Source: Streptosporangium sandarakinum
GTDB taxonomy: Bacteria > Actinomycetota > Actinomycetes > Streptosporangiales > Streptosporangiaceae
Assembly (NCBI RefSeq): GCF_013409935.1
Contig: NZ_JACCCO010000001.1
Span: 1,116,001-1,180,000 of the forward strand
Length of the DNA: 64,000 nucleotides
Direction of reading: 5' to 3'
Part shown: positions 977-18,031 of the stretch, piece by piece
Numbering within the stretch: position 1 is the stretch's first letter
How the letters are laid out: every line of letters begins with the position of its first letter
Made by a program: the position numbers and the translations under genes
The notes under the pieces: model-generated
Told to the model about the DNA's origin: nothing
The model's database searches: none
What the model saw: the letters and a program-made list of their open reading frames with translations, nothing else

Positions 977-983
977 ACAAGCA

Positions 984-1025
984 GCCTACCGGCATAGATA
1001 CATGGTTGTATCTATGCCGGTAGGC
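984..1025. promoter_or_regulatory. Perfect inverted repeat, probable GntR operator
   Basis: Two perfectly complementary 19-base arms (984-1002 and 1007-1025) flank TGGT; the right arm reads TGTATCTATGCCGGTAGGC. The centre is AT-rich in an otherwise very GC-rich context. It begins 8 bases upstream of the gntR ATG and overlaps the likely -10 hexamer, so an operator is more likely than a terminator for the upstream phosphofructokinase gene; there is no T-run on the relevant side. Confidence 0.8.
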
Positions 1026-1067
1026 AAGAGACCCGGCGACTCCCGTCGGCCGGCCCGGCGACTCCCG

Positions 1068-2093
1068 TCAGCCGAAGAAGACCTCCGCCTCCTCGTAGCG
1101 TCCGACCGGCACCGTCTTCAGTTCCTTGGTGGCCTCGCCGAGGCCGGCCCGGACGATGTCGGTGCCCCGGAGCGCCACCATGACGCCGAACTCGCCGTCG
1201 TGGACGGCGTCGATGGCCTGCAGGCCGAACCTGGTGGCCAGGACCCGGTCGAAGGCCGTGGGCGTGCCGCCGCGCTGGATGTGGCCGAGCACGGTGGTGC
1301 GGGCCTCCTTGCCGGTCCGCTTCTCGATCTCCTTGGCCAGCATCTCGCCGATGCCGCCCAGCCGGACGTGGCCGAACGCGTCGAGCTCACCGGCCTGGAG
1401 GGTCATCTGGCCCTCGATCGGGTGGGCGCCCTCGGCGACCACGATGATCGGCGCGTACCGGGTCTGGAAGCGGGACTCGACGTAGGCGCAGACCCGGTCG
1501 ATGTCGAACGGCTTCTCCGGGATGAGGATGACATTGGCGCCTCCCGCCATGCCCGCGTGCAGGGCGATCCACCCGGCGTGGCGGCCCATCACCTCGCAGA
1601 TCAGCGCCCTGTGGTGGGACTCGGCGGTGGTGTGCAGCCGGTCGATCGCCTCGACGGCGATGTTGACGGCCGTGTCGAACCCGAAGGTGTAGTCGGTGGC
1701 GTTCAGGTCGTTGTCGATGGTCTTCGGCACGCCGACGACCTTGACGCCCTGGTCGAAGAGCTGCTTGGCGACGCCGAGGGTGTCCTCGCCGCCGATGGCG
1801 ATCAGGGCGTCGACCCCGGCCTCGGCCAGGTTGCCCTTGATCTTCTCGACACCGCCTTCGATCTTGAGGGGGTTGGTCCGGGAGGAGCCCAGGATGGTCC
1901 CGCCGCGTGGCAGGATGCCCCGGACCGCCTGGATGTCCAGCGGCACCGTCTCACCTTCGAGCGGGCCGCGCCAGCCGTCGCAGAATCCGACGAACTCGTG
2001 TCCGTAGACGCCCACACCCTTGCGCACGACGGCGCGGATCACGGCGTTCAGTCCGGGGCAGTCGCCGCCCCCAGTTAGCACTCCGATACGCAT
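1068..2093 (-). CDS. pfkA: 6-phosphofructokinase with pyrophosphate-type active site
   Basis: 341 residues, the usual length of actinobacterial PfkA. It phosphorylates fructose 6-phosphate in glycolysis. The N-terminal GGGDCPGLN loop, the PKTIDNDL catalytic segment (Asp127 is the expected base) and the MGRHAGWIA segment are present. Numbering matches E. coli PfkA without gaps: position 104 is Asp (GGEDT) and 124 is Lys (VPKTID). In the family literature Gly104 marks ATP users, while Asp104 with Lys124 marks PPi-dependent enzymes such as that of Amycolatopsis methanolica, so I infer a reversible PPi-dependent enzyme. The ATG has a good ribosome site (GGAGGA, 4 bases upstream). A DasR-like palindrome lies about 105 bases upstream. 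Next downstream is gntR, apparently separately transcribed. Confidence 0.95.
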   Translation of the reverse strand: MRIGVLTGGGDCPGLNAVIRAVVRKGVGVYGHEFVGFCDGWRGPLEGETVPLDIQAVRGILPRGGTILGSSRTNPLKIEGGVEKIKGNLAEAGVDALIAIGGEDTLGVAKQLFDQGVKVVGVPKTIDNDLNATDYTFGFDTAVNIAVEAIDRLHTTAESHHRALICEVMGRHAGWIALHAGMAGGANVILIPEKPFDIDRVCAYVESRFQTRYAPIIVVAEGAHPIEGQMTLQAGELDAFGHVRLGGIGEMLAKEIEKRTGKEARTTVLGHIQRGGTPTAFDRVLATRFGLQAIDAVHDGEFGVMVALRGTDIVRAGLGEATKELKTVPVGRYEEAEVFFG

Positions 2094-2507
2094 GGCATCC
2101 TCCGGTGGTTCCGAAACAAGACAGCCAAACCGAATGGGGTGACACGACCGGCGGGGTCTCCCGCGCCGACCTCACGCATTCTGCCTGCTGAAAGACCAAT
2201 GGTCTAGACCAAATGGAGGAGACTTCGGCGTTGTCCGCACCTCCCCTGGCCGGTGCGCCGGCGGGCCCGTTCCCGGGTGTCCGCGGCGCCGGGCCGGGCC
2301 GGTGCGGTCCGGGAGGAACGAGGGGGTACCTTCCCCCATCCGGGCCGCGCGACACGGGCCCCGCCGCATGATCTGGGCCGGCCCCTATGCCGCTCGGGGA
2401 CCGGCCCGATCCGGCCGCGGCGCCTCCGGGGACCGGCCGTACGGGCCGCCGCGGACTCCTCCGCCCGTCGCCCGTACGGGCCCCGCCCCGGAGCCCTCCG
2501 GCCAGGG
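2094..2507. other. Intergenic region with pfkA promoter side
   Basis: No convincing gene. The half next to pfkA holds the dre-like palindrome (2198-2213) and is relatively AT-rich. The remainder (about 2230-2507) is very GC-rich with two copies of a CCGTACGG-centred palindrome near 2438 and 2471. It is the 3' side of the DMFase-like gene, which is on the same strand. No clear T-rich intrinsic terminator is visible. Confidence 0.5.
2198..2213. promoter_or_regulatory. DasR-type operator (dre-like)
   Basis: AATGGTCTAGACCAAA contains the perfect palindrome TGGTCTAGACCA, the core of the published Streptomyces DasR element (ANTGGTCTAGACCANT); only the last position deviates. A second overlapping palindrome, GACCAATGGTC (2194-2204), adjoins it. 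DasR is the GlcNAc-responsive GntR repressor. The position, about 105 bases upstream of the pfkA start, would link phosphofructokinase expression to amino-sugar supply. The protein itself is not in the window. Confidence 0.7.
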
Positions 2508-4067
2508 TCAGCGCGCGCCGAGGCCCACCGTGGCGAGGTTGTCCTCGGCCGGGTGGCTGCGCCCGGCCGGACCGGCGGCGAAGGCCCGCAGGATGTTCAC
2601 CGTGCTGCGGCGGACGAACGCCCTGGCCTGCCCGGTGACGCCGTGCCCGCAGCGGGCGCCGCGCAGCGCGCAGACCCAGCGCATCGTGCCGGAGTTGAAC
2701 ACCCCGGCGCCGCTCGGCGCGGTGTAGTAGGCGCTGTGCGCGACCGTGGACCGTCCGCCGCAGTCGACGGGCGAGACCGACAGCACCTCCATGGGGCGGG
2801 GCGCGTCCCGGCCGATCCGGTCGGTCTCCACCCCCGCCATGCCGGGGAAGCGGGTGCCGTGCCGTACACCGGTGCCCCGGAAGATCCAGCTCCCCGGGCG
2901 GTGGACCACGTAGGCGGCCTCGGCGGGATAGCAGTCGTACATCGGCCCGGTCAGCGAGCTCTCCGGGCGGTGGTCGCGCCACAGGTCGGTGCGGGGGTCC
3001 TCGGCGGTGTCCTTGTGGCAGACGACCAGCCGGCCGGGGCCCAGCCGCGTCGCGGCGAACCTGATCCGCCAGTAGACGGCGTTGGCGCCGAGGAAGGCGA
3101 TGTTGACGCCCCGGTCGCGGGCGGTCTCGACGGCGCGGCGCATGCGCGGCGACCAGTACTCGTCGTGCCCCAGGGAGACCAGGCCCCGGGCGCCGTCGAG
3201 GGCGTGCGGGTCCTCGTCCAGGTCCACGCTGGTGAGGTAGGCGAGCGGGACGCCGGTGCGCTCGGCGAGGGCGATGGCGTCGTACTCCATGTCCAGGAAC
3301 AGCCGGGCACCGGAGGTGTCGTAGGGGCGGTCGAAGCTGACCGCCCGGGAACGCTCCTCGAAACCCCCGGGGCCGACGTAGAGGCTGCGGCCGCCCCAGT
3401 AGTTGTACGCCTGCCAGGTGGTGACCGCGTTGACGACCGCCATGCTCCCCCGCGCCGAGGCGGACCTGACGGTGACGGGGACGTAGCGGCCGCCTCCGGT
3501 GGCGGCGTCCAGGCGGATCAGGTAGGAACCCGCGGGCCAGCCGGTGGTGTCCACCTCCGGTCCCGGCCTCCAGTGGTCGGCGGTCACCGTGCGGGTCGCG
3601 GCGACGACCTTCGGAGCCGACTGCCGGACGCCGGGCAGCCCGGCCACCCGCCACACCCGCCGCGCGCCGGCTCCGCCGTACCAGCCCATCCGGAAGGCCG
3701 TGGCGGTGTAGTGGTCGGCCGTGGTCGAGACGTACAACCGGAACCTCTCCCCCGGCAGCACGCTGACCCGGTCGGCGAACCCCTCGATCTCGTGCGCGGC
3801 CCCGAGGCGGCGCAGCCGCCAGTGCGGGTCGCCCGGCCTGGCGTTCTCGGCGGCGGTGGCGCCTCCGGCGGCGGCCCCGGCGTCACCGGGGTTCCCCGCG
3901 GCGGCGTCCCCGCCTCGGGCGTCACCGGGCGCGGCGGAGCGGGAGCCGGAGGGCGCGAGGGTGCCGGCGGGGTGACGGGCGGCGGCCGCGCACCCGATGA
4001 CCAGAGCCATGGTCACCAGCAGGGTGACCGCCAGATGCGAGGGCACGCGAGACATGCCCGGCATCAT
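2508..4067 (-). CDS. Secreted lipoprotein with N,N-dimethylformamidase beta-subunit-like domain
   Basis: 519 residues. The N-terminus has a hydrophobic segment ending in a lipobox-like LVIGC (about residues 22-26), so the product is probably an exported lipoprotein. After a disordered Ala/Gly/Pro stretch (about 28-80) comes a beta-rich domain containing FRMGWYGGAGARRV and WPAGSYLIRL (about 100-190). It continues into the large C-terminal domain of the DMFase-beta family: WQAYNYWGG, FLDMEYDAIALAERTGVPLA, VSLGHDEYWS, NIAFLGANAVYWRIRF. The family is known from amidohydrolase complexes, but most homologues are of unknown role and this one is extracellular, so the substrate is not assigned. Alternative ATGs lie at 4064 and 4055; none has a strong ribosome site. 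It appears to be a single-gene transcript. Confidence 0.8.
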   Translation of the reverse strand: MMPGMSRVPSHLAVTLLVTMALVIGCAAAARHPAGTLAPSGSRSAAPGDARGGDAAAGNPGDAGAAAGGATAAENARPGDPHWRLRRLGAAHEIEGFADRVSVLPGERFRLYVSTTADHYTATAFRMGWYGGAGARRVWRVAGLPGVRQSAPKVVAATRTVTADHWRPGPEVDTTGWPAGSYLIRLDAATGGGRYVPVTVRSASARGSMAVVNAVTTWQAYNYWGGRSLYVGPGGFEERSRAVSFDRPYDTSGARLFLDMEYDAIALAERTGVPLAYLTSVDLDEDPHALDGARGLVSLGHDEYWSPRMRRAVETARDRGVNIAFLGANAVYWRIRFAATRLGPGRLVVCHKDTAEDPRTDLWRDHRPESSLTGPMYDCYPAEAAYVVHRPGSWIFRGTGVRHGTRFPGMAGVETDRIGRDAPRPMEVLSVSPVDCGGRSTVAHSAYYTAPSGAGVFNSGTMRWVCALRGARCGHGVTGQARAFVRRSTVNILRAFAAGPAGRSHPAEDNLATVGLGAR

Positions 4068-4262
4068 CGCCGCCCGCCGGGCGCCCCGTCCGCGACTTGA
4101 CCGGCCCTTGGCCCTTCGGCGGCGGAACGCGGACCCGGACGGCCGCCGCGGAGGCGGAACGGGCCCGGTGAGCGGCCCGGACCCCGCGTCCCGGACGGCC
4201 GTGGCGGACGGGGCCGGTGTCCCGGACCGCCGCGACGGGCGGGGTGCCGGGCCGGGACCCGG

Positions 4263-5252
4263 TCAGGACAGCGGCAGGACGCACGAGGGCGTGCCGACGG
4301 CGAACACCCCCGCGGCGTCCCCCGGGACGCCGTCCCTCATCGGCAGTACGGCCACGCCCGCGGACCGCTGGTTGGCCACGTACATCCGGTCGCCGGCGAC
4401 GGCGAAGTGCCGGGGCCACGCGCCGCCGCAGGGCACCTCGGCGACCCGCTCCAGGCCGGGCACGGAGAACACCGCGATCGTGTCGGGGCCCCGGTTGGCG
4501 ACGTAGACGAAGCGCCCGTCCCCGGACGCCTCCAGGTGCGAGGGATGGTTCTCGCCGTCGGCCGCGCCGGCCGGGACGGCCCGGACCTCCCGCCAGCCGT
4601 CGTCGCCGGCGTCGTAGGCGCGGACCGTGCCGTCCAGTTCCCCGGCGACGTACCAGCGGTCCCCCACCCGGGCCATGTGCCGGGGGCCCATGCCCTCGGC
4701 CAGCCGTACCGGGCCGCCGGGGTGCGGCGTCACCCGGTCCCCGGCCCGGCCGGGGCCCGGGACCAGGTAGCGGCGGATCTCGTCCGTGCCCAGGTCGGAG
4801 ACGTACAGCACGCCGTCGGGCCCGAAGACGGACTGGTGGGCGTGGGAGTCCTCGCGGTGCGGGAAGACCTGGGGGGCGGCGAGGGCGCCGGTCTCGTCGA
4901 TGGGGTACACGCTGACCACGCCGTCGCCGTAGTTGGCCACCGACAGCAGGGTCCCGGAGGGGTCGACGACCAGGTGGCAGGGGGTGTTCCCCTCGCTGGG
5001 CCGCCGGTCGGTCTCGGTGAGCGTCCCGTCGGCGGCGCGGGCGAAGACGGCGACCGTGCCGGGCTCCCCCTCGCCCACCGCGTACAGGACCGGCAGCCGG
5101 GGGTGGGCGGCGAGGAACGACGGGCTCGGGGCGGGCGTCTCCGCGACCCGGGTGAGTCCGGCCGGCTCCATCAGGGTGATCCCCGGGCCGGTGCCCTCGG
5201 TCCCCGGCGTGCCGCCCGGTGTGTAGCCGCCGATGTACGCGATCTCCGCCAT
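4263..5252 (-). CDS. Lactonase family beta-propeller protein
   Basis: 329 residues, cytoplasmic (no signal peptide). The sequence is a seven-bladed propeller of the 6-phosphogluconolactonase (Pgl/YbhE) type, with repeated blade motifs such as PCHLVVDPSGTLLSVANYGDGVVSVY, HAHQSVFGPDGVLYVSDLGTDEIRRY, GPRHMARVGDRWYVAGE and NHPSHLEASGDGRFVYVANRGPDTIAVF. The family hydrolyses 6-phosphogluconolactone in some bacteria, but many members have other or unknown roles, so only the fold is certain. I chose ATG 5252 (MAEIAYIGGY); GGGAG lies 4 bases upstream. ATG 5255 adds one Met. The reading frame stays open to 5597, but that extension is Arg/Gly/Pro-rich and unlike the family. Confidence 0.85.
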   Translation of the reverse strand: MAEIAYIGGYTPGGTPGTEGTGPGITLMEPAGLTRVAETPAPSPSFLAAHPRLPVLYAVGEGEPGTVAVFARAADGTLTETDRRPSEGNTPCHLVVDPSGTLLSVANYGDGVVSVYPIDETGALAAPQVFPHREDSHAHQSVFGPDGVLYVSDLGTDEIRRYLVPGPGRAGDRVTPHPGGPVRLAEGMGPRHMARVGDRWYVAGELDGTVRAYDAGDDGWREVRAVPAGAADGENHPSHLEASGDGRFVYVANRGPDTIAVFSVPGLERVAEVPCGGAWPRHFAVAGDRMYVANQRSAGVAVLPMRDGVPGDAAGVFAVGTPSCVLPLS

Positions 5253-5320
5253 CATGCTCCCGCAGCCGTGGAGGCCGGTGCGCGGCCCCCGAACCCTTCC
5301 TGACCTTCCCGTGCCGTTCT

Positions 5321-5360
5321 GGGCCTTCCCGGGCCCTCCCGGGCGCTCCCGGGCCCTCCC
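5321..5360. repeat. Four tandem 10-bp repeats with CCCGGG cores
   Basis: Successive decamers gggccttccc, gggccctccc, gggcgctccc and gggccctccc give a CCCGGG palindrome once per helical turn. They lie between the divergent lactonase and MarR-GNAT genes, about 70 bases upstream of the lactonase start. Slipped-strand expansion is the simplest explanation; a regulatory role is possible but unproven. Confidence 0.7.
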
Positions 5361-5522
5361 GGGTCTTTTCGCCCGTCCCCGCCAGTCTGCGAACCTAGCG
5401 CACCCCCTGCCCGTTCCGGGAGGCGCCCCTCCGAGGAGGACCGGGTGACCCGGGAGGCGCGCCGGGACCGGGGGACACCGCGTGCCGTCTTCCCACGAGG
5501 GCCCGGTTAATTCGTTGACTCG

Positions 5523-5551
5523 GTCATATAAATGGTTGATCGTGTCATACA
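5523..5551 (+). promoter_or_regulatory. Direct repeat GTCATA(T/C)A before the MarR-GNAT gene
   Basis: GTCATATA (5523-5530) and GTCATACA (5544-5551) are spaced 21 bases apart (two helical turns) in an AT-rich patch immediately upstream of and touching the ATG at 5551. MarR proteins usually autoregulate from sites of this placement. The repeat is seen; its function is inferred. Confidence 0.4.
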
Positions 5552-6462
5552 TGATTTCGGACATCGACCGCCGTGTGGCGGAGATCCGCGCGTTCAACCG
5601 CTTCTACACCGGTGTCATCGGCGTGCTCCACCAGGGCATCCTGAACACCCCCTACTCCCTCACCGAGGTGAGGGTGCTGTTCGAGCTGAACGGCGGAGAC
5701 CGGATGGAGACCGGCGAGCTGCGGCGGCTGCTCGGTCTCGACGCCGGCTACCTGAGCAGGATCCTCGGGCGGTTCGAGAGCGACGGCCTGGTCACCCGCG
5801 AGCGGTCGGCGGCCGACGCGCGGCGGCAGGTGGTCTCGCTGACCGCCGCCGGCCACACCACGTTCGCGGCCCTCGACGAGCGCTCGGCGGCCGAGGTGCG
5901 GGGCCTGCTGGAGGGGATCACCGAGGAGGACGCGCGGCGGCTGGTGGCGAGCATGGCGGCCATCCGGGAGGTCCTCGCCCCCGCCCGGCGGGCGGAGCCG
6001 TACGTCATCCGCCCGCCGCGCCCCGGCGACCTGGGATGGGTGGTGCACCGGCACGGCGTGCTCTACAGCCAGGAGTACGGCTGGGGCGCCGACTTCGAGG
6101 CGCTGGTGGCCAGGATCGTGGCCGACTACGTGGACCACCACGACCCCCGGCGCGAGGCCGGGTGGATCGCCGAGGTGGACGGCGAGCGGGCCGGATGCGT
6201 GTTCTGCGTCCGCAAGGACGACGGGACGGCGCTGCTGCGGATGCTGCTGGTCGAGCCGTCCGCCCGGGGGCTGGGGATCGGCGGGCGGCTCGTCGGCGAG
6301 TGCGTGGCCTTCGCCCGGGCGACGGGCTACCGGCGCATGGAGCTGTCGACCAGGAGCGTGCTGACCAGTGCCCGGCGGATCTACCGCGCGGCGGGCTTCG
6401 AGCCGGTCGAGGAGCGGCGGCTGGATGACCTCGTCGAGGAGACCTGGGCGATGGACCTCTGA
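5551..6462 (+). CDS. MarR HTH - GNAT acetyltransferase fusion
   Basis: 303 residues. Residues 1-150 are a MarR winged helix domain (METGELRRLLGLDAGYLSRILGRFESDGLVTRERSAADARRQVVSLT). Residues 155-303 are a GNAT N-acetyltransferase with the acetyl-CoA loop RMLLVEPSARGLGIGGRLV and the C-terminal RIYRAAGFEPVEE strand-helix. This two-domain arrangement is recurrent in actinobacteria and usually annotated as a regulator/acetyltransferase of unknown substrate. I chose ATG 5551 (MISDIDRR), where MarR homology begins; the open frame upstream to 5482 looks non-coding. No Shine-Dalgarno is visible before 5551, so the message may be leaderless. It is divergent from the lactonase gene. Confidence 0.88.
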   Translation: MISDIDRRVAEIRAFNRFYTGVIGVLHQGILNTPYSLTEVRVLFELNGGDRMETGELRRLLGLDAGYLSRILGRFESDGLVTRERSAADARRQVVSLTAAGHTTFAALDERSAAEVRGLLEGITEEDARRLVASMAAIREVLAPARRAEPYVIRPPRPGDLGWVVHRHGVLYSQEYGWGADFEALVARIVADYVDHHDPRREAGWIAEVDGERAGCVFCVRKDDGTALLRMLLVEPSARGLGIGGRLVGECVAFARATGYRRMELSTRSVLTSARRIYRAAGFEPVEERRLDDLVEETWAMDL

Positions 6463-6903
6463 CGCGCTCCGCCCGGGAGACGCGGCGGAGGCCGAGTCGG
6501 GATGGAGGGCGGACGGGTGAGGATGACCGCGAGCCGGGGCGGGCGGGGGCCGGTGCGGTGGAGCCGCCCCCGGCGCGGGGTCGCACGCCGGGCGAAGGCA
6601 AAGTTCTCGCAAGGACACGGGTGGGCGTCCTTCAAACCTGGCCGCCCTATCATCAAGATCCGCGTCTGGGGACGCCTGCGGGTCCACAGTGGATCCACGT
6701 GACTCCTCCGCTCCCTGAAGAGAGCGGCTTCTCGCTTTCCTCGGCCGAGGCAGGCGACGGACAAGCCCTGCCCGTTTCGAACACAGGAACCACATCAAGG
6801 AAGCGACTCCCCTGTCGGATGAACCCGGCAGTGCCCTCACCAGATCCGATGGGTCTCACGCGGACCCCGCGTGAGACTCCCCGCCGCCGCCCCGGGAGGA
6901 CCG
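6463..6903. other. Intergenic leader of the KAP NTPase gene
   Basis: About 440 bases without a supported gene. It is less GC-rich than its neighbours around 6600-6820 (for example AAAGTTCTCGC, CATCAAGATCC), consistent with a promoter and a long 5' UTR for the downstream NTPase gene. It ends in the stable hairpin listed separately. No conserved RNA motif was recognised. Confidence 0.4.
6853..6877 (+). promoter_or_regulatory. Leader hairpin before the KAP NTPase
   Basis: GTCTCACGCGG (6853-6863) and CCGCGTGAGAC (6867-6877) form an 11-bp perfect stem with a 3-base loop. It contains the in-frame GTG at 6871 and ends 17 bases before the GGGAGGA ribosome site of the preferred TTG start at 6904. It could be an operator, an attenuator or a translation-limiting structure; there is no T-run. 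Confidence 0.5.
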
Positions 6904-9900
6904 TTGAGCGAAGGACTCGCGTTCGCCGACCCGATCCCCGAGACCCCCGGGGCCGCCACCCGGACGGGCGCGCGACGGGCCCTGGTCTTCCTGGACTCGC
7001 CGCCCGCCACACCCGACCGGCCCTTCGACCCCCCGGCCGCCGGACGGCCGGACACCCGCCTGGCGGCGGTGCTGCGCGCCGAGGGCTTCACCGTCGACGC
7101 CCGCCCCGGCGAGGGCGCGCGGGCCGACGGCGGCCGGGTGTGGGACTTCCTGCGGTCGGCCGGGGACGGCGACGTGCTGATGATCCGGCTGCCCGGCGGC
7201 AACGCCTGGACCTCCGGCCAGCTCGGCTCCATGATCGGCGCGTTCGGCCGGCGGGTCGGCGAGTCGGCGGCGGCGGCCGTGCTGCTGGTCATGGACTTCG
7301 GCTGGAGCGCCCTGGACGGCTCGGCCCCGCCGGTCAGGCAGCTCGGCGTGGCCGGGGAGCCCCGCCTGTCCGCGGCGGCGCTCACCCTGGCCCTGCGGTT
7401 CGGCGAACCCGCCCACGGCCCCGCCCCCAGCCTGACCGGCGTCCTGGCCGACGGCCTGGCCTCCCTGGCTGCCGACCCGGCGCGCGGCGCGGTCACCGTC
7501 GGCGACCTGCACGCCCACGCGCTGCGCCACTACGCCGCCGTCTCCTCCCCCCGCACCCCAATCCTGCTGGCGTACGGCCCCGCCGCGGACGTCCCGCTGA
7601 CCCGGCCCCGTCTCCCGGCCGCGCCCGCGCCCTCGCCGGTGCACGCCGCCTTCGCCCGCACCCTCACCGTGCTCGGCGACCCCGCTCCCCCGGCCTCGGG
7701 CACCGAGATCGTGCGGCGGGTCTACGAGCTGCACCTGAGCGAGCACGCCCGGCAGGTGCTGCGCGGCGCCTCCCTGCTGGAGGAGGGCGAGCCGGTCGAG
7801 GAGATCCTCGGCGACGCCGCCGAGCTGCGGCACTGGGGGCTGCTCGGCGAGACGGCCCTGTTCGCCCACCCCGACGTGCGGGCCTTCGGCTACTCCCGGC
7901 TGAGCCCGGCGGAGCGGGCGCGGACGTCGGCGCTGCTGCGGCGGTGGCGGGCCGGGCGGCGGGCCGTACAGCCCCGGGCCAGGCTCACCGCCGACCGGTG
8001 GACCACCGACGACCAGCTCGGCCACCGGATCTACGCCGAGGCGATCGCCGCGTTCGTCCGCCACCCCGAGACCCGGCCGCCGCTCACCATCGGCGTCAAG
8101 GGCCCGTGGGGCGCCGGCAAGACCTCCCTGATGCGGATGATCCAGGACCTCCTGGACCCCGGGGCCGCCGGGGACGGCCCCGCCGAGATCCACCTGCCGG
8201 ACCCCGGCGGGGCGGGCGACCTGACCAACGCCGAGGTGCTGTCCAGGGCCGGACGGCGGCGGCGCGGCGGCGCGGGCCGGGCCGAACCCGGGGCCCTGCC
8301 GGTGCGGCGGGCCGACTGGCGGCCGACGGTGTGGTTCAACCCGTGGATGTACCAGAGCGGGGAGCAGGTCTGGGCCGGGCTGGCTCACGAGATCATCAGC
8401 CAGGTCACCCGGCGGCTGCCCCGCACCGAACGGGAACGGTTCTGGCTGGAGCTGAACCTGTCCAGGATCGACCCCGAGGCGGTCCGCCGCCGCGCCTACC
8501 AGCTCGCGGTGACCCGGCTGGTGCCGCTCGCCCTCGGCCTGCTCGCCGCCCTGGTCCTCACCGGCGCGCTGCTCGCCGGGGCCGCGCTGCTGCCGGCGTT
8601 CGCCGCCCTGCTGTCGAACGCGGCCGCCGCGGTCGGCGCGGCCGGGGCGGTCACCGCCGTCGGGGCGGGAGCCGTACGGCTGGCGAGGTTCTTCGGGGAG
8701 TCGGCCGGCAACGCCTTCTGCGACCTGGTCAGCCAGCCGGACCTGTTCGCCCCCGGCTCGGCCGACGGCCCGGCGGGCGAGTTGCTGAGCGGCCCCGGCT
8801 ACCGGTCCAGGGCGGGTTTCCTGCACCTGGTGCAGACCGACATGCGGCAGGTGCTCGACCTGGTGGCCACCGAGGAGCGGCCCCTGGTGGTGTTCGTCGA
8901 CGACCTGGACCGGTGCTCGCCGGGAACGGTGGCGCAGGTCATCGAGGCGATCAACCTGTTCCTCGCCGGGGAGTTCCCCAACTGCGTGTTCGTGCTGGCC
9001 ATGGAGCCGGAGGTGGTGGCCGCGCACGTCGAGGCCGCCTACCGGGAGCTGGCCGAGACGCTGCCGGACGACGGGCGGTCCGGGCTGGGCTGGCGGTTCC
9101 TGGAGAAGATCGTGCAGCTGCCGCTGAGCGTGCCGCTGCTGGACGACGCCGACCGGCTGCCGGCCTTCGTCCGGGCGCTGCTGGGCATGCCGGAGGTCAC
9201 CGACGCCCCGGGGGCGGGTCCCGGTGGGGAGGCCGGGGACCGGCGCTCCGCGGGGAACGGCGGGGCCGAGGACGGGCGACGCGGAGGCGGTCACGGCGAA
9301 ACCGGCGGTCACGGTGGGATCGACGGGACCGGCGGGTCCAGCGGGACCGTTGAGACCGGAGCCGGGCGCGGGAACGGCTCCGGGCATTCGGCCGGGAACG
9401 GGGGCACCGGGAACGCCGAAGACGCGGGCGGGGACGGGGACGGGAACGCCGCCGGGACGCCCTGCCCGGACGTCCCCGGGGCGCGCACGCCGCTCGACGT
9501 GCCGCTCGCCGTACCCCGGCCGGGGCCGGTGAGGCCGCCGGACCCGTCGCTGGTGAGCCGTCTGGAGGACGCGATCTGGGCGCTCCGGCCGACGGCCGCG
9601 ACCCTGGACGAGGCGGCGCGGCGGGCCCAGGAGGAGCTGGGCGTGGACTGCTCGGACGCGATCGGCGGGCTGGCCACGGCGACCCGCGAGGCGGCCGACC
9701 GGGTCTTCGACGAGCTCTACAGCGACGAGAACGCCTACCGGGCCATCGAGTTCGTCCTGCCTGCCCTGATGTTCTTCAACCCCCGGGAGATCAAGCGCTA
9801 CGTCAACGTCTTCCGCTTCTACTCGTTCATCGCCTACCGGCGGACGCTCGCCGGGGCCGCCCCCGCCTCCGACGGGGAGGTCGCCAAACTGGCGGCGCTG

Positions 9901-10200
9901 ACCATCCACTGGCCGCATCTGCTGACCTCCCTGGCCCGGGAGACGGGCGGGACGACCGCGCTGGAGCGGCTGGAGGAGGCCGCGGGCGACGACGCCGCCT
10001 GGGAGCGGGCCGTACGCGAGTGCGGGCTGGCGGCGGTCCGCGAGGCGGGACCCCCGGGGCCGTACGGGCCTCCGGGACCGTCCGGGCCGTGGGGACCGCC
10101 GGGGACGGACGGCGACGGGGACGTCGCCCACCTGGACCCGCTGCGGAACCTGCTGCGCTTCCCGCACCCCGTCGCCGCCCTGGCCCGCCACCTCCTCTGA
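6904..10200 (+). CDS. KAP family P-loop NTPase with N-terminal degenerate caspase-like domain
   Basis: 1098 residues from TTG 6904 (GGAGG four bases upstream); an in-frame GTG at 6871 would add 11 residues but sits in a hairpin. Residues about 20-220 have the layout of caspase-like (C14) domains: a first strand (RALVFLDSP), DTRLAAVLRAEGFTV, GDVLMIRLPGGN (about 90-100) where SGHG is expected, VMDFGWSALDG (about 129-139) where DCCxSG is expected, then SLTGVLADGLASLAAD, TVGDLHAHALRHY and TP. Both catalytic His and Cys appear to be lost. The KAP domain follows: Walker A GPWGAGKT (400-407), two membrane segments (about 539-567 and 575-600), Walker B LVVFVDDLD (661-669). A Gly/Asp-rich linker (about 766-860) and a collagen-like PPGPYGPPGPSGPWGPPG tail (about 1049-1070) are odd additions. 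KAP NTPases are membrane-anchored; PifA, a known member, excludes phage. A conflict or signalling role is inferred. Confidence 0.88.
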   Translation: MSEGLAFADPIPETPGAATRTGARRALVFLDSPPATPDRPFDPPAAGRPDTRLAAVLRAEGFTVDARPGEGARADGGRVWDFLRSAGDGDVLMIRLPGGNAWTSGQLGSMIGAFGRRVGESAAAAVLLVMDFGWSALDGSAPPVRQLGVAGEPRLSAAALTLALRFGEPAHGPAPSLTGVLADGLASLAADPARGAVTVGDLHAHALRHYAAVSSPRTPILLAYGPAADVPLTRPRLPAAPAPSPVHAAFARTLTVLGDPAPPASGTEIVRRVYELHLSEHARQVLRGASLLEEGEPVEEILGDAAELRHWGLLGETALFAHPDVRAFGYSRLSPAERARTSALLRRWRAGRRAVQPRARLTADRWTTDDQLGHRIYAEAIAAFVRHPETRPPLTIGVKGPWGAGKTSLMRMIQDLLDPGAAGDGPAEIHLPDPGGAGDLTNAEVLSRAGRRRRGGAGRAEPGALPVRRADWRPTVWFNPWMYQSGEQVWAGLAHEIISQVTRRLPRTERERFWLELNLSRIDPEAVRRRAYQLAVTRLVPLALGLLAALVLTGALLAGAALLPAFAALLSNAAAAVGAAGAVTAVGAGAVRLARFFGESAGNAFCDLVSQPDLFAPGSADGPAGELLSGPGYRSRAGFLHLVQTDMRQVLDLVATEERPLVVFVDDLDRCSPGTVAQVIEAINLFLAGEFPNCVFVLAMEPEVVAAHVEAAYRELAETLPDDGRSGLGWRFLEKIVQLPLSVPLLDDADRLPAFVRALLGMPEVTDAPGAGPGGEAGDRRSAGNGGAEDGRRGGGHGETGGHGGIDGTGGSSGTVETGAGRGNGSGHSAGNGGTGNAEDAGGDGDGNAAGTPCPDVPGARTPLDVPLAVPRPGPVRPPDPSLVSRLEDAIWALRPTAATLDEAARRAQEELGVDCSDAIGGLATATREAADRVFDELYSDENAYRAIEFVLPALMFFNPREIKRYVNVFRFYSFIAYRRTLAGAAPASDGEVAKLAALTIHWPHLLTSLARETGGTTALERLEEAAGDDAAWERAVRECGLAAVREAGPPGPYGPPGPSGPWGPPGTDGDGDVAHLDPLRNLLRFPHPVAALARHLL

Positions 10201-10222
10201 ACGCCCCGCCTCCCGGGGACGG

Positions 10223-10447
10223 TCACCGCCGTACGGTCGCCTGCTTGCGGCCCCGGGCGGAGGGTCCCCGCCAGGTGGGGACGTTCCCGGAGCCGCGGCC
10301 GGGCTGGCGCAGCGTCTCCTTGCGGGGATCGGCGGCCTGGTCGCGGCGGCGCTTGCGCATGATCAGCCACCCGGCCCCGAGCACGGCGAGCCCGAGGGGC
10401 GTTCTGGAGAGCCAGCGGGTCGCCACGAGCTGCAGGATCCTCTTCAT
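10223..10447 (-). CDS. Small single-pass membrane protein, basic C-terminus
   Basis: 74 residues. One hydrophobic helix at about residues 13-31 (RTPLGLAVLGAGWLIM) is preceded by a short basic amphipathic N-terminus (MKRILQLVATRWLS) and followed by a strongly basic tail (RKRRRDQ ... RGRKQATVRR). A ribosome site (GGGAGAAG) directly precedes the ATG. I do not recognise a function; similar short proteins are annotated as DUF families in Streptosporangiales, but I cannot name one with confidence. It is convergent with the KAP gene, with only 22 bases between the stops, and divergent from the GT-C gene. Confidence 0.65.
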   Translation of the reverse strand: MKRILQLVATRWLSRTPLGLAVLGAGWLIMRKRRRDQAADPRKETLRQPGRGSGNVPTWRGPSARGRKQATVRR

Positions 10448-10578
10448 CTTCTCCCTCTCTCAGCTAGCCTCCGTCTCCTCTACCCCGGCCCCCGCCCCGC
10501 ATGCCAGGCGACGGCCTCAGCCGCCGGGCCCGCGGCCATGACGGCTGACCTGCCCGGACCTGCTACTACGGTGAACGG

Positions 10579-12180
10579 GTGCGCGCAGTCCTCCCCCGAC
10601 GACCCCGCCCCCGGACCGGAAGCGGCGCGACCGCCTCATGGCGCCGCCGGGCGGCCGTCGCCGTCCCCCCGCTGATGGCCGCCGCCATCGCCGGATGGGG
10701 GATCACCGTGCCGTCGCTGTGGCGGGACGAGTCGGTCACCGGCATGGCCGCCCGCATGTCCCTGCCCGAGCTGCGGGCGCTCCTCGCCGACATCGACACC
10801 GTCCACGCCCTGTACTACCTGCTCATGCGGCCGTTCGCCGCGCTCGGCGCCTCCGGCCCCGTCGAGCTGGCGCTGCGGCTGCCGTCGCTGCTCGCGTTCG
10901 CCGCCGCCGCGTACGGCGTGGCCGTCCTGGGCCGCCGCCTCGCCGGTCCGGCGGCCGGCCTGTGGAGCGGCCTGCTGTACGCCGTCCTGCCGATCATGTC
11001 CCGCTACGCCCAGGAGGCGCGCGGCTACGCGCTGGTCAGCGCGGTCGCCGTGCTGGCCACGTGGCTGCTCGTCACGGCGCTGGAGCGGCCGTCACGGCTG
11101 CGGTTCGCCGGGTACGGGGCGGCGGTCGCCCTGCTCGGGTGGCTGCACCTGTACGCCCTGCTCCTGCTGGTCGCGCACGCCGTCGCCGTACTCGCCGCCG
11201 GACGGGCCGTCCCCGGGACGCGACCGCCGCGGCGCCCCCGGTCCTCTCCCACGTCACACCCGCCGCGAGGGCCGCTGCGGCCGCCATGGCCGTCGTGGCT
11301 GCTCGCCGTGGCCGGCGCCGGGGTCGCGCTGGCGCCGCTCGTGGTGGTCGCGGCCGGGCAGCGGGACACCCAGCTGTTCTGGCTGCGCTCCCCCGGCCCG
11401 CCGGAGCTGGTGGCCTTCCCGATCGGGGTGGCCGGGAGCGCGGCCGGGGCGGCGGCGGTGTTCGGCCTGGCGGTGTGGGGCGGGTGGTCGGCCCGCCGTA
11501 CGCCGCTCGTCGCGGCCTGGGCGGTCCTGCCGTTCGCGATCTCGTTCGCCGTGTCGCAGGTGGCGCCGATCTACCATCCCCGGTACGTGCTGGTCGTGGT
11601 CCCCGGGATCGCGCTCGCCGCCGGGATCGGCCTGACCCGCCTCGCCGCGATCGCGGGCCGATGGCGGTTCGCGGTCGCCGTGCCCGCCGTCCTGCTCGTC
11701 GCCGCGACGGCCCTCCCGGCGCACGAGGCGCTCCGCACGCCGGACAGCCGCCCCGACGACCTGCGGTCCCTGACCGCCGCCCTCGACGCCGAGGTGCGGC
11801 CCGGTGACCGGGTGCTCTTCGTGCCGTACCGGTACCGGCTGTTCGTCGCCGTCTACGGCGGGCCGTACGAGCGCCTGGTGGACCTCACCCACGCGCCCGG
11901 CCGGTACGAGCCGCGCACCGCTGCCGAGTTCACCGCCGCGGCGGCCGGGGCGAACCGGATCTGGCTGGTCTCGGCGCGGATCGGCAAGGTCTACGCCGCC
12001 GACCCGCGCCTGGTGGCGCTGCGGAGCGCCTTCTCCGCCGCCGGGCCGACCCGGCGGTTCGGCTCCATCCGCCTCACGCTCTACCGGCCCCGCGGGGCCG
12101 AGCGGCACCGGGCCGGGGTGGAGCGGCGGTCCGGCGGCGCCCGTGACGCCGCCACCTCCACACCCGCGCCGCCCGCCTGA
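10579..12180 (+). CDS. GT-C fold glycosyltransferase (polyprenyl-phosphate-sugar dependent, GT39/ArnT-like)
   Basis: 533 residues, polytopic with roughly ten hydrophobic segments. The first extracytoplasmic loop has the acidic LWRDESVT motif expected of GT-C enzymes, followed by ALYYLLMRPF, LRLPSLLAFAAAAYG and the typical YAQEARGYAL motif. A soluble C-terminal domain (about 400-510) follows the last helix. Such proteins transfer sugars from polyprenyl-phosphate donors to proteins, lipids or wall polymers on the outer face of the membrane; donor and acceptor are not predictable. GTG 10579 is chosen because TACGGT (10567-10572) is exactly six bases upstream, the spacing of a leaderless promoter; no Shine-Dalgarno is seen. 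A Pro/Arg-rich cytoplasmic loop (about 215-235) is poorly conserved-looking. Confidence 0.85.
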   Translation: MRAVLPRRPRPRTGSGATASWRRRAAVAVPPLMAAAIAGWGITVPSLWRDESVTGMAARMSLPELRALLADIDTVHALYYLLMRPFAALGASGPVELALRLPSLLAFAAAAYGVAVLGRRLAGPAAGLWSGLLYAVLPIMSRYAQEARGYALVSAVAVLATWLLVTALERPSRLRFAGYGAAVALLGWLHLYALLLLVAHAVAVLAAGRAVPGTRPPRRPRSSPTSHPPRGPLRPPWPSWLLAVAGAGVALAPLVVVAAGQRDTQLFWLRSPGPPELVAFPIGVAGSAAGAAAVFGLAVWGGWSARRTPLVAAWAVLPFAISFAVSQVAPIYHPRYVLVVVPGIALAAGIGLTRLAAIAGRWRFAVAVPAVLLVAATALPAHEALRTPDSRPDDLRSLTAALDAEVRPGDRVLFVPYRYRLFVAVYGGPYERLVDLTHAPGRYEPRTAAEFTAAAAGANRIWLVSARIGKVYAADPRLVALRSAFSAAGPTRRFGSIRLTLYRPRGAERHRAGVERRSGGARDAATSTPAPPA

Positions 12181-12319
12181 CGGACGGCGGCCGGCTCCAC
12201 GGCCGCGTCGCCGAAGAGCAGGCGAAACCCCATTCCGGACGGGCCCCGGGGCCCCGCTCCGGACGCCCCGTGGGCACGCTCCCATATCCCGGGAGAGCGC
12301 TTCCTCCTATCCTTGGCCG

Positions 12320-13114
12320 ATGGAACTAGCGGAGATCCGCACCTACCCCGTCAAGTCCACCGCAGGCATCCTCCGCCCATCCGCCCGAGTCCTCCCCTGG
12401 GGCCTGGAAGGCGACCGCCGCTGGGGCGTGGTGGACCCGCTGGGAGAACTGATCTGGGTGGGCGAACACCCCCGCCTCCTCTCGGTCTCGGCCGCCGAGA
12501 CCCCTGAAGGCGGCCTCCGCCTGTCGGCGAAGGGCATGGGCGAGCTCAGGGTCCCCCCGGCCACCGGCGACACGATCCCGATGGGTTGCTCCAACCTCGA
12601 CCGGGCCGTGCTCGCCCACGCCGACGCCCATGAATGGTTCACCCGCCTGCTCGGCAGGCCCGCCCGCCTCATCTGGCTGGACGAGCCCGCACGCCGGGCC
12701 GGCGCCGGGGAGTACGCCGGCCTCTGGGACGGGCCCCTCCATCTCGTCTCCAGGAGTTCGCTCCGGCGCCTGGACGACTGGATCGCCGAAGGCGCCCTGG
12801 AACGCCGGGAGCACCCCCCGGGCCCCCTCGACATCGCCCGCTTCCGGCCCAACGCCGTCATCGACGGCGCGGAACCCTTCGCGGAGGACGCCTGGGCATC
12901 GGTCAGCATCGGCGAGATCGACTTCCGCGTCTCGGAGTCGTGCGACCGCTGCGCCGCCACCATCTGGAACCCCACCACTCAGGAGCGCGGCAGGGAACCC
13001 CTGAGAACCCTGGCCGAACGCCGCCGCTGGGACGGAAAGACCTGGTTCGGCATCCGCCTGGTGCCCAGGAACGTCGGCGAACTGAGAGTCGGCGACGAAG
13101 TCCGGCCAGGCTAG
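12320..13114 (+). CDS. MOSC domain protein (YcbX/mARC-like)
   Basis: 264 residues. The N-terminal MOSC beta-barrel (MELAEIRTYPVKSTAGI ... GLEGDRRWGVVDPLGELI) is followed by the MOSC domain with FRPNAVIDGAEPFAEDAW and the cofactor-binding segment SESCDRCAATIWNPTTQERGREPLRTL. In the YcbX/mARC group the conserved Cys of this segment ligates molybdenum, so this is probably a molybdenum-cofactor enzyme reducing N-hydroxylated compounds. Unlike E. coli YcbX it has no C-terminal ferredoxin domain, so it needs a separate electron donor. TATCCT (12308-12313) lies six bases upstream of ATG 12320 and no ribosome site is present, indicating a leaderless transcript. It is convergent with the acetyltransferase gene. 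Confidence 0.88.
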   Translation: MELAEIRTYPVKSTAGILRPSARVLPWGLEGDRRWGVVDPLGELIWVGEHPRLLSVSAAETPEGGLRLSAKGMGELRVPPATGDTIPMGCSNLDRAVLAHADAHEWFTRLLGRPARLIWLDEPARRAGAGEYAGLWDGPLHLVSRSSLRRLDDWIAEGALERREHPPGPLDIARFRPNAVIDGAEPFAEDAWASVSIGEIDFRVSESCDRCAATIWNPTTQERGREPLRTLAERRRWDGKTWFGIRLVPRNVGELRVGDEVRPG

Positions 13115-13144
13115 CCGGTCAGGCGCTCCGTGGCCGCCTTCGAT

Positions 13145-13164
13145 GGCCGCCTTCGATGGCGGCC
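13145..13164. terminator. Hairpin between convergent genes
   Basis: GGCCGCC (13145-13151), loop TTCGAT, GGCGGCC (13158-13164). The left arm and loop are tandemly duplicated just upstream (13132-13144), so alternative pairing is possible. It separates the convergent MOSC and acetyltransferase genes and probably terminates both. Confidence 0.6.
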
Positions 13165-13187
13165 GAACCCCCGGACGGCGCCGCGGC

Positions 13188-13730
13188 CTAGCCCTTCGAG
13201 TCCGGCTTCCAGTCCTGGACGAGGAGGCCGAGCAGCACCTCGTCCAGGAACTCGCCCATCACCCAGGCCGCCGAGCGCAGCACGCCCTCGCGGACGAAGC
13301 CGTTGCGCTCGGCGGAGCGCAGCATCGCGGCGTTGTCCGCCAGCGTCTCGATCTGCAGCCGATGCAGGCCGCGCACGGCGAAACCGTAGTGGCACAGCAC
13401 CGCGACCACGTCGGTGCCGTAGCCCTTGCCACGGGCCGCCGGCCGCAGCCCCAGCCCGATGTGCGCGGACCGGCTGTGGTTGTCGATACCCCACAGCGTC
13501 GCGGCGCCGACCAGCGTGCCGCCGTCCAGCTCCACGACCGAGAAGGAGGCGTGCCCCTGCTCCTTGTCGTCCACCGCGAACTGCGAATCCTTCGAGCCGG
13601 GCATGATCGGCCGCCACGGCTGGCCCACGGACCGCGAGGTGTTGACCACGTCGTCGTAGAGCTCGGTCTGCAGAATCGGGATGTCGTCCTCGTGCCGGGC
13701 CCTGAGCCCGACCTTGTCACCTCTCAGCAC
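13188..13730 (-). CDS. GNAT N-acetyltransferase, RimJ/RimL type
   Basis: 180 residues. The N-terminus LRGDKVGLRARHEDDIPILQTELYDD is typical of RimJ/RimL-like GNATs. The acetyl-CoA site is HIGLGLRPAARGKGYGTDVVAVLCHYGF, followed by LHRLQIETLADNAAMLRSAERNGFVREGVLR. Such enzymes acetylate N-termini of ribosomal proteins or small molecules; the substrate is unassigned. The GTG start has AGGA about 7 bases upstream. It stands alone between convergent MOSC and the dps gene, which is in the same orientation 130 bases upstream. Confidence 0.9.
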   Translation of the reverse strand: MLRGDKVGLRARHEDDIPILQTELYDDVVNTSRSVGQPWRPIMPGSKDSQFAVDDKEQGHASFSVVELDGGTLVGAATLWGIDNHSRSAHIGLGLRPAARGKGYGTDVVAVLCHYGFAVRGLHRLQIETLADNAAMLRSAERNGFVREGVLRSAAWVMGEFLDEVLLGLLVQDWKPDSKG

Positions 13731-13859
13731 GCGAGCTTCCTATCGGACCGGGCCGGTCGGCGGCAAACCGATAAGAACTCCGAACGGAACGGCGCTCCAG
13801 CCTCGATCAGGCCGGAGCGCCGGGGACGCGCCGGGTGGATCCGGCGCGGCGAGGCGGAC

Positions 13860-14327
13860 CTAGCGCTGGGCCTCCAGCATCCAGTGGTGCTTCTCCAGGT
13901 CCTGGGTGATCTCGATGAGGATGTCCTGGGTCACCGGGTCCGGCTTCTCGGTGGCGGCGACGCGCTCCCGCATCCGGCGGATGATGGACCCGAGGATGTC
14001 CGTCATGGCGGCGACGACCTTGCCGTCGTTGATGTAGCCCGCTTCCAGCTGCGGCAGCTCGTTCGTGTTGGCCAGCGTGGACGGCCGGCCGTCGGGGTTG
14101 CATCCCAGCGCCACCGCGCGTTCGGCGACGGTGTCGGCGTGCTCCCGGGCGGCCGCGACGATCTCGTCGAGCTGCAGGTGCAGGGAGCGGAAGTTGTGGC
14201 CGATCACGTTCCAGTGCGCCTGCTTGCCCACGAGCGAGAGGTTCAGCAGGTCGACGAGCGATCCCTGGAGGGTCTCGCCGATGACCTTCTTGTTCTCGGG
14301 AGTGAGCGGGCTGGTGATCGTGGACAT
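13860..14327 (-). CDS. dps: Dps family ferritin-like DNA-protection protein
   Basis: 155 residues, a normal Dps length. The ferroxidase region is clear: LVGKQAHWNVIGHNFRSLHLQLDEIVAAAREHADTVAERAVALG supplies the His, Asp and Glu residues used at the Dps dimer interface. Dps dodecamers oxidise and store iron with peroxide and protect DNA under starvation and oxidative stress. The start at 14327 (MSTITSPLTPENKK) has GGGGAG seven bases upstream; the frame stays open to 14384 but that extension is not Dps-like. Divergent from it is a MerR-type regulator, with tandem palindromes between; dps may be under that regulator or a sigma factor. Confidence 0.95.
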   Translation of the reverse strand: MSTITSPLTPENKKVIGETLQGSLVDLLNLSLVGKQAHWNVIGHNFRSLHLQLDEIVAAAREHADTVAERAVALGCNPDGRPSTLANTNELPQLEAGYINDGKVVAAMTDILGSIIRRMRERVAATEKPDPVTQDILIEITQDLEKHHWMLEAQR

Positions 14328-14349
14328 GAGATATCTCCCCGTTATCGTC

Positions 14350-14367
14350 CTATGTCCTTCTATGTCC
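14350..14367 (-). promoter_or_regulatory. Tandem CTATGTCC repeat in the dps upstream region
   Basis: CTATGTCC occurs at 14350-14357 and 14360-14367, a period of ten bases, 23 bases upstream of the dps start. It may be a regulator site or part of the dps promoter; no clear -10/-35 pair is assignable. Confidence 0.35.
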
Positions 14368-14400
14368 CAAACGCCCATACCCACCGAACGGCTTCTTATG

Positions 14401-14430
14401 TTGACAGTGTCACGATGACAGTGTCATTGT
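14401..14430 (+). promoter_or_regulatory. MerR-type promoter with two TGACAGTGTCA palindromes
   Basis: TTGACA (14401-14406) and CATTGT (14425-14430) are separated by 18 bases, and the ATG follows six bases after the -10, indicating leaderless transcription. Two identical 11-base palindromes, TGACAGTGTCA, lie at 14402-14412 and 14416-14426, one on the -35 and one abutting the -10. They are the obvious operators for the encoded MerR-like protein. Confidence 0.65.
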
Positions 14431-14436
14431 TGGAAC

Positions 14437-15345
14437 ATGGAGTGGACGATCGGCGAACTGGCCGAGCAGGCGACGGCCCTGCTGGGTCCCACCGCCCAGC
14501 TCAGCGGGCGCGTCAGGGACGTGCCCAACGAGCGCCTCATCCGGTGGTACGCCACGATCGGGCTCCTCGACCCGCCCCTGACCCGCCGTGGCCGCGTCGC
14601 CCTGTACGGCAGGCGCCACCTGCTCCAACTCGTCGCCGTCAAGCGCCGCCAGGCCGAGGGCCGGACCATCGCCGAGATCCAGGCCGAGCTGGCCGGAGCC
14701 ACCGACCGGACGCTGGAGGCGATCGCGGACATCCCCGAGCCGCCCGCGGGGTCACCCGCCGGACCGGCCGCCGGGCCACCGGCCGCGCCGCGTGCCGCGC
14801 GCCCGCGCTTCTGGGCCACGCCGCCCGCCGCGACCGGAGCCGCGCCCGCCCCTCCCCCGCCGTCCGGCGCACCTCCGAACACTTCCCCGTCATCGGCCGC
14901 GCCGCCCGGCGCACCGCCGAACATCCCGCGGTCGCCCACCGGCCGCCCGCCCGCCGCCGTACCCGCCCCTCCCCCGCGACCGGCGGCGCCCGGGGCCGCC
15001 GCGCGGTCCCTCCGGCGCGCACCCCGCCAGGCCGGGAGCCGGCCCGCACCACACCCGGAAGCCGGGCCGCCCACCTCCTCACCCGCCGCCGTGGGGCCGC
15101 AGTCCCCCGGCACGAAGCCTCAGCCTCCGGACACGCCGGCCACCGTGAGGCCGCAGGCCCCGCCCCCGAGTGGGCCGCCGGCCGTGGCCGTCCACGGCGT
15201 ACGGCTCGCACCGGGCGTGACGCTGCTGCTCGACGGCGGCCGCGCGCCCTCCCCGGACGACCTCACCGCGATCGGCGCCGCGTCCCGGGCGCTCCTCGCG
15301 GTCCTGCGTGAACACGACCTCGTCCCTCCGGAAGGAGAGCAGTGA
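14437..15345 (+). CDS. MerR-like HTH regulator with long Pro/Ala-rich linker
   Basis: 302 residues. Residues 1-90 form a MerR-type winged HTH (WTIGELAEQATALLG ... VRDVPNERLIRWYATIGLLDPPLTRRGRVALYGRRHLLQLVAVKRRQAEGRTIAEIQAEL). Residues about 100-245 are low-complexity Pro/Ala/Arg. A short structured C-terminus (about 248-300: VAVHGVRLAPGVTLLLDGG ... LTAIGAASRALLAVLREHDL) follows, perhaps an oligomerisation or sensor element. Its stop overlaps the start of the VIT/vWA gene, so the two are translationally coupled; in other actinobacteria such MerR-like genes also accompany VIT-vWA genes. The promoter carries two tandem palindromes and is probably leaderless. The signal sensed is unknown. Confidence 0.8.
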   Translation: MEWTIGELAEQATALLGPTAQLSGRVRDVPNERLIRWYATIGLLDPPLTRRGRVALYGRRHLLQLVAVKRRQAEGRTIAEIQAELAGATDRTLEAIADIPEPPAGSPAGPAAGPPAAPRAARPRFWATPPAATGAAPAPPPPSGAPPNTSPSSAAPPGAPPNIPRSPTGRPPAAVPAPPPRPAAPGAAARSLRRAPRQAGSRPAPHPEAGPPTSSPAAVGPQSPGTKPQPPDTPATVRPQAPPPSGPPAVAVHGVRLAPGVTLLLDGGRAPSPDDLTAIGAASRALLAVLREHDLVPPEGEQ

Positions 15346-17945: not shown

Positions 17946-17947
17946 GC

Positions 17948-17979
17948 GGACGCGTTCTCCCGATCAGGAGGACGCGTCC
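17948..17979 (+). terminator. Hairpin terminator after the VIT/vWA gene
   Basis: GGACGCGTTCTCC (17948-17960) pairs with GGAGGACGCGTCC (17967-17979) with one G-T wobble and a six-base loop, starting two bases after the stop codon. No T-run follows, as is usual in high-GC actinomycetes. Confidence 0.75.
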
Positions 17980-18031
17980 CGGCCCGGAAAACGCCGGGCT
18001 CCCCGGCTGACCGGTGGGTTACAGTGCCGGG

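Follow-up and report, generated by a model that had tools for sequence, protein, structure and literature searches.

What does a bacterium do with a caspase fold from which the catalytic residues have gone? Animals are known to use pseudo-caspases as regulators, and the question is raised here by a single gene of Streptosporangium sandarakinum, lying in a 64,000-nucleotide stretch of DNA (the window, to which all coordinates refer). The original prediction described its product as a catalytically dead caspase-like domain fused to a membrane KAP NTPase and suggested a sensor or scaffold in a defence or cell-fate system. In the literature searched, which included few subscription papers, neither this protein nor any caspase-KAP fusion is described. 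The gene and its parts are as follows.

6904..10200, + strand: whole gene, encoding a pseudo-caspase, a winged helix and a KAP NTPase in 1098 aa (sequence, Pfam)
6894..6906, + strand: Shine-Dalgarno-like GGGAGG and TTG start codon (sequence, relatives)
6961..7611, + strand: residues 20-236, caspase-fold domain without the catalytic dyad (AF2 model, Foldseek, VIA, hhalign)
7189..7203, + strand: residues 96-100, LPGGN at the position of the catalytic His segment (alignment)
7294..7305, + strand: residues 131-134, DFGW at the position of DCCY in DCCYSG (alignment, 38 of 38 rows)
7636..7968, + strand: residues 245-355, winged-helix-like domain (hhalign, AF2 helices)
8032..9150, + strand: residues 377-749, KAP NTPase domain (PF07693, E 1.4e-30)
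8101..8127, + strand: Walker A, GPWGAGKTS, with G400, P401, W402, G403, G405, K406, T407 and S408 invariant (32 rows)
8500..8676, + strand: residues 533-591, hydrophobic insert, a predicted membrane segment (Kyte-Doolittle)
8887..8916, + strand: Walker B, VVFVDDLDRC, with FVDDLDRC invariant (32 rows)
9184..9543, + strand: residues 761-880, Gly/Asp-rich low-complexity linker, fast evolving (dN/dS 0.63)
9544..10197, + strand: residues 881-1098, conserved C-terminal part (invariant columns, dN/dS 0.061)

The TTG start and a GGGAG/GGGGG-type site are retained in all six relatives compared. Searches of Pfam, NCBIfam, PADLOC and PDB sequences with the first 365 residues found nothing up to E 10, and no effector-associated domain was recognised there by Pfam, NCBIfam or PADLOC; NF047832, the model for EACC1-associated caspases (cut-off 140 bits), likewise found nothing in the N-terminus up to E 10, which leaves the protein outside that family as modelled. 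Structure prediction followed by a Foldseek search, the check proposed with the original prediction, recovered the caspase sheet order: the AF2 model has the strand order and helices of a caspase and matches solved caspases with both Foldseek and VIA, placing the domain in the caspase fold (clan CD, C14-like). Profile comparison agrees. When the orthologue alignment (38 rows; L005, L006, L034 and L053, short or cut by a 440-residue window, were left out) was compared by hhalign with seven intact caspases, the result was 93.6%, and with 28 intact loci (26 distinct domains, actinomycete genomes) it was 97.4% at a score of 82.4, against maxima of 18.8 in 100 column shuffles and 19.8 for the reversed profile. 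Because 16 of the 28 loci had been found with the query profile itself, which favours a high score, we repeated the comparison with nine distinct domains found by Pfam/NCBIfam models only, and obtained 90.7% at a score of 49.5 (100 shuffles, maximum 18.9). The caspase-like N-terminal layout read from the sequence at the outset was thus correct.

An HMM of the orthologue alignment matched 23 of 394 class genomes at E 1e-3, with 20 loci given (three orthologues and the 17 examined) and five more weak matches without a locus. All 17 non-orthologous loci are caspase-like frames and 16 carry both [ST][CG]HG and DCC.[SAG]G, the exception (L087) having DCCYGG and no HG in the frame examined. The nearest relatives found for the domain are intact NF047832 members, of the EACC1-associated type. 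By eye, intact EACC1-type caspases (L054, L076, L099) have a DxDxDG(x)VTxxE-like stretch near the domain end that resembles an EF-hand loop; the corresponding stretch is about one residue shorter in the pseudo-caspases and degenerate in the window protein.

The absence of the catalytic motifs, also part of the original prediction, proves to be a property of the whole orthologous group. His is found at residues 93-100 in none of the 38 rows and Cys at residues 128-137 in none, and the protein therefore lacks the His and Cys of an active C14 peptidase. Residue 99, which aligns with the catalytic His, varies among orthologues, and G133 sits where intact caspases have the second Cys of DCCYSG, which we take to be the catalytic one. 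By alignment the His-Cys spacing is 34, compared with 50 in 15 of 16 intact caspases. What the former active site has kept is a different set of residues: R95, just ahead of LPGGN, is invariant in the 38 rows, and D131, F132, G133 and W134 are invariant in all of them. The cleft could have gained a different, non-cysteine chemistry, a reading to which the invariance of D31, R95, D131 and T178, two of them at the former active site, lends something. It is highly improbable, since residues 20-239 contain no position at which His, Cys, Glu or Lys is 85% conserved and no invariant Ser, the His-aligned residue varies and the loops are shortened.

Comparison with the nearest relative (L002) gives a dN/dS of 0.083 for the pseudo-caspase domain (only 10 synonymous and 2 non-synonymous changes), 0.63 for the linker and 0.061 for the C-terminal residues 881-1098, which also contain invariant columns; all of these values rest on few changes. 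From these few changes the pseudo-caspase domain appears to be under purifying selection in its own lineage.

The KAP NTPase is the only Pfam domain above cut-off in the protein (107 bits against a gathering score of 20), a clear KAP P-loop NTPase. Its Walker A and Walker B motifs are intact and invariant across 32 rows (the 38 rows minus L002, L013, L029, L031, L032 and L050), and between them the insert at residues 533-591 reaches Kyte-Doolittle 19-residue means of up to 2.46. The fusion of a pseudo-protease to a membrane KAP NTPase is accordingly upheld by Pfam, AF2, Foldseek, VIA, hhalign, residue invariance and hydropathy.

Between these two domains lies a winged helix. Residues 240-365 align with the pre-KAP regions of nine relatives that carry other heads (hhalign 97.9%, score 78.5; maximum 19.7 in 60 shuffles), and the match persists when KAP-proximal parts are removed on both sides (97.5%, score 69.8; maximum 17.4 in 60 shuffles). 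The winged helix is common to NB-ARC-KAP and kinase-KAP relatives, and in L044 an AfsR (NB-ARC) profile match at residues 138-464 spans the winged-helix region; the protein thus has the architecture of a STAND receptor, with a STAND-type winged helix adjoining the NTPase. The heads on the relatives are diverse: models identify a protein kinase (L043), NB-ARC (L041 and L047, the latter also with HTH) and an intact EACC1-type caspase (L054, NF047832 163.1 bits against the cut-off of 140), L044 has a weak TIR match below cut-off, and four heads are named by eye only (L042 TIR-like, L045 kinase-like, L048 trypsin-like, L052 cold-shock-like). In L054 (4921-6750, Phytohabitans flavus) the intact caspase is followed by a related KAP domain, within which the open frame stops; no winged helix was recognised in its pre-KAP region. 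The actinomycete winged helix-KAP proteins L041-L049, L051 and L052, with their many N-terminal heads, look like an unsurveyed modular family.

The order of head, winged helix and NTPase recalls STAND/NB-ARC receptors as described in the available portions of PMC8195603 and PMC10907252. The window protein differs from them in that its NTPase is a KAP with a hydrophobic insert and that it is a single gene at a kept locus. According to the same portions, KAP ATPases can displace STAND NTPases (Kaur 2021, PMC8195603) and KAP NTPases are listed among hypermutated sensors (PMC10907252). Our preferred view of the protein is that of a variant among receptor-like NTPases whose heads are exchangeable, one now established as a stable gene of several genera. 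The sensor or scaffold role first suggested for it is plausible, and is strengthened by the kinase and NB-ARC heads on relatives and by the intact EACC1-type caspase on one KAP relative.

Tentatively, and at something short of an even chance, we favour a membrane-anchored, ATP-driven signalling switch in which the inactive caspase head has been retained under selection as a binding module on the winged helix and KAP NTPase. A STAND-type winged helix and KAP NTPase would carry an exchangeable N-terminal head; here that head would be a caspase domain, closest to those associated with EACC1. Before the Streptosporangiaceae genera that carry it split, it would have lost the dyad and some of the active-site loops, and selection would then have preserved it for binding. 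The pseudo-active cleft, with invariant R95 and D131-F132-G133-W134, would bind a peptide or partner protein, with a ligand bound the winged helix would let go of the KAP ATPase, and ATP-driven assembly or rearrangement at the membrane would relay the signal, with proteolysis unnecessary. We infer the steps from cleft binding to membrane signalling; the sensor step in particular is suggested by the architecture and by analogy. Two Nonomuraea orthologues (L037 and L038) are without the winged helix, and the latch step would therefore not be universal.

Intact caspases in the same cell offer another role for an inactive head. The pseudo-caspase might pair with co-resident intact EACC1-type caspases, or compete for their ligands, and so set the threshold of a proteolytic response in the manner of cFLIP, with its inactive caspase domain, in animals; cFLIP is mentioned in the available part of PMC8195603. 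Kaur 2020 (PMC7159879), as far as its accessible text goes, describes EACC1 caspases, reports that of the caspases in effector position in VMAP systems about 70% are inactive, and proposes dominant-negative or peptide-binding roles for these, which speaks for such a decoy and, as to peptide binding, also for the switch favoured above. NF047832 matches 8 of 16 genus genomes, and all eight are among the 13 that carry the pseudo-caspase. The other five carriers, the genome studied here included, have no NF047832 or PF00656 match at E 1e-3, yet the domain appears to be under purifying selection in this lineage. With five carriers showing no intact caspase, a decoy could be general only if its partner escapes the models through divergence, and we regard it as quite unlikely. 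The three genus genomes without the gene also have no intact caspase match, and are too few to weigh. For the switch that we favour, the lack of a detectable intact caspase in this genome implies that no caspase partner would be needed there.

Two groups of bacterial caspase homologues are closest in kind. EACC1-associated caspases (NF047832; system 4 of Kaur et al. 2020, in the accessible text of PMC7159879) share the fold and the late elements with the pseudo-caspase. They differ in that the 38 orthologue rows are without His and Cys and have a His-Cys spacing 16 residues shorter, that the NF047832 match is absent, and that here the 5' neighbour is MarR-GNAT and the KAP NTPase is the constant partner. 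For this neighbour only MarR and GNAT models match in Pfam and NCBIfam, the latter perhaps having no model of EACC1. Pseudo-orthocaspases of the SyOC type, in the parts of PMC7889975 and PMC6426788 that were available, share a p20-like caspase fold without the HC dyad that has been retained in evolution. Their commonest substitution is Tyr/Ser, whereas here there are a variable residue and Gly, with DFGW, a winged helix and the KAP fusion; 90% of them are in Alphaproteobacteria and Cyanobacteria, with 3 pseudo-variants out of 636 sequences in Actinobacteria (PMC6426788, same parts). SyOC of Synechocystis is the closest analogue in print: its deletion made the cells more tolerant of oxidative stress, and its authors suggested that it promotes death (PMC7889975, available part). 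The result is as compatible with a cell-death arm as with a benign sensor, a point against the switch that we favour.

The gene's history looks like that of a resident. A quickly built KAP tree places the 42 pseudo-caspase rows together on one side of a branch with a support of 99, and genera mostly cluster together; the tree has unresolved forks and long branches, with L055 left out and L054 included only in part. The gene is present in 13 of 16 genus genomes, and strong matches (above a line at 190 bits, counted by hand) occur in at least 45 of 250 family genomes, in nine genera and at one place each, a lower bound because eight candidates were scored per genome. A tally at E 1e-3 gives 79 of 250 and includes weak partial matches of the intact-caspase kind. 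Since three of the 16 genus genomes have no copy, and strong matches were counted in only 45 of the 250 family genomes, the gene is not essential, which counts against the switch reading.

The place it occupies is kept. Of 41 orthologue loci, 34 have a VIT-vWA gene within the flank retrieved and 23 have PFK, some loci (L005, L019, L045 and L055 among them) being too short for both flanks, while neither is found in the flank of any of 13 KAP-only relatives. Two genus genomes without the gene (G001, G003) retain PFK, Dps and VIT-vWA, with no KAP match in 19.9 kb, and a third (G011) retains Dps and VIT-vWA; from this comparison the gene appears to have been lost from an otherwise kept locus. The flanking genes match GntR, PFK, DMFA2-like, MarR-GNAT, DUF6203, PMT-like, MOSC, GNAT, Dps/ferritin, VIT-vWA and DUF885 in Pfam, and as judged by these models are metabolic or regulatory.

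Some details of the 3' side deserve mention. DUF6203, PMT-like and MOSC genes (10223-13114) separate the KAP gene from Dps here and in L002, but the Dps region seems to follow the KAP gene directly in many other genera. The VIT-vWA gene (15342-17945, + strand) lies beyond Dps, yet is near the pseudo-caspase gene in those 34 of 41 loci; its product matches the TIGR03788 sortase-target model below its cut-off. A conserved match had made the frame at 13143-15311 (+ strand, 722 aa) a candidate downstream operon partner, which we rejected: it is largely antisense to a ferritin/Dps-like gene (13860-14384, - strand) and a GNAT gene (13188-13730, - strand), the conserved match is read as antisense translation of the former, and the frame is likely not a gene.

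This setting bears on whether the protein belongs to phage defence or is an abortive-infection effector, with a KAP ATPase that works like that of PifA or QatA and a head that senses a phage product. The KAP part does match QatA models (NCBIfam E 4.4e-32, PADLOC E 6.4e-26) and PifA models (E 1.8e-19), a P-loop domain with Walker A and B being common to all three, and in the available text of PMC8195603 KAP can take the place of STAND NTPases in EAD systems. The N-terminus is different from those of PifA and QatA, however, and the QatA score of 111.5 bits is far under the cut-off of 600 that, together with qatBCD neighbours, defines QatA, a DNA-binding heptamer or octamer that is partly dispensable according to the portion of PMC13279940 available. 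PADLOC recognised no partner in the flanks scanned (zero matches in 10 flanking frames), and the N-terminus had no match in plasmids and phages and no relative in viral contigs. A mobile element or defence island was considered and found no support in the plasmid, viral-contig and phage searches or in Pfam, PADLOC and NCBIfam searches of the flanking frames (257-19660). Together with the kept locus, the single KAP group and the apparent loss from a retained locus, these results go against the defence system first proposed, and a role of this kind is distinctly unlikely. Since certain defence systems are likewise chromosomal and passed on vertically, the points against defence amount to context only.

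The same kept locus and single KAP-tree group, with a C-terminal part as constrained as the head, would also suit a housekeeping protein that does not signal: a membrane ATPase with a structural or chaperone-like part in the mycelial envelope, its caspase fold serving as a mere protein-protein scaffold. Against this, the kinase, NB-ARC and caspase heads on related KAP modules form a signalling repertoire, and the invariance of DFGW and R95 suggests a specific function at the former active site; we consider the housekeeping role unlikely. The kept chromosomal place in related genera points instead to a sensor or switch, rather than to a protease or a roaming anti-virus gene, and because the gene is kept at one locus across genera, a role in stress, in the envelope or in (mycelial) development seems to us more likely than a typical phage-defence module. 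A more specific version of the switch, possible although doubtful, is that an actinomycete lineage domesticated a suicide-type caspase receptor: seated on a membrane KAP ATPase, the former protease would be a pseudo-enzyme that senses a ligand through R95 and DFGW, and the whole would serve as a protease-free, apoptosome-like switch of mycelial life.

In this compact, single-gene pseudo-caspase, which several actinomycete genera have kept, the invariant surface can be named and the ATPase motifs are intact. What a caspase fold does once it is no longer able to cut becomes a testable question here, and the protein may illustrate how receptors of the conflict type become part of core physiology.
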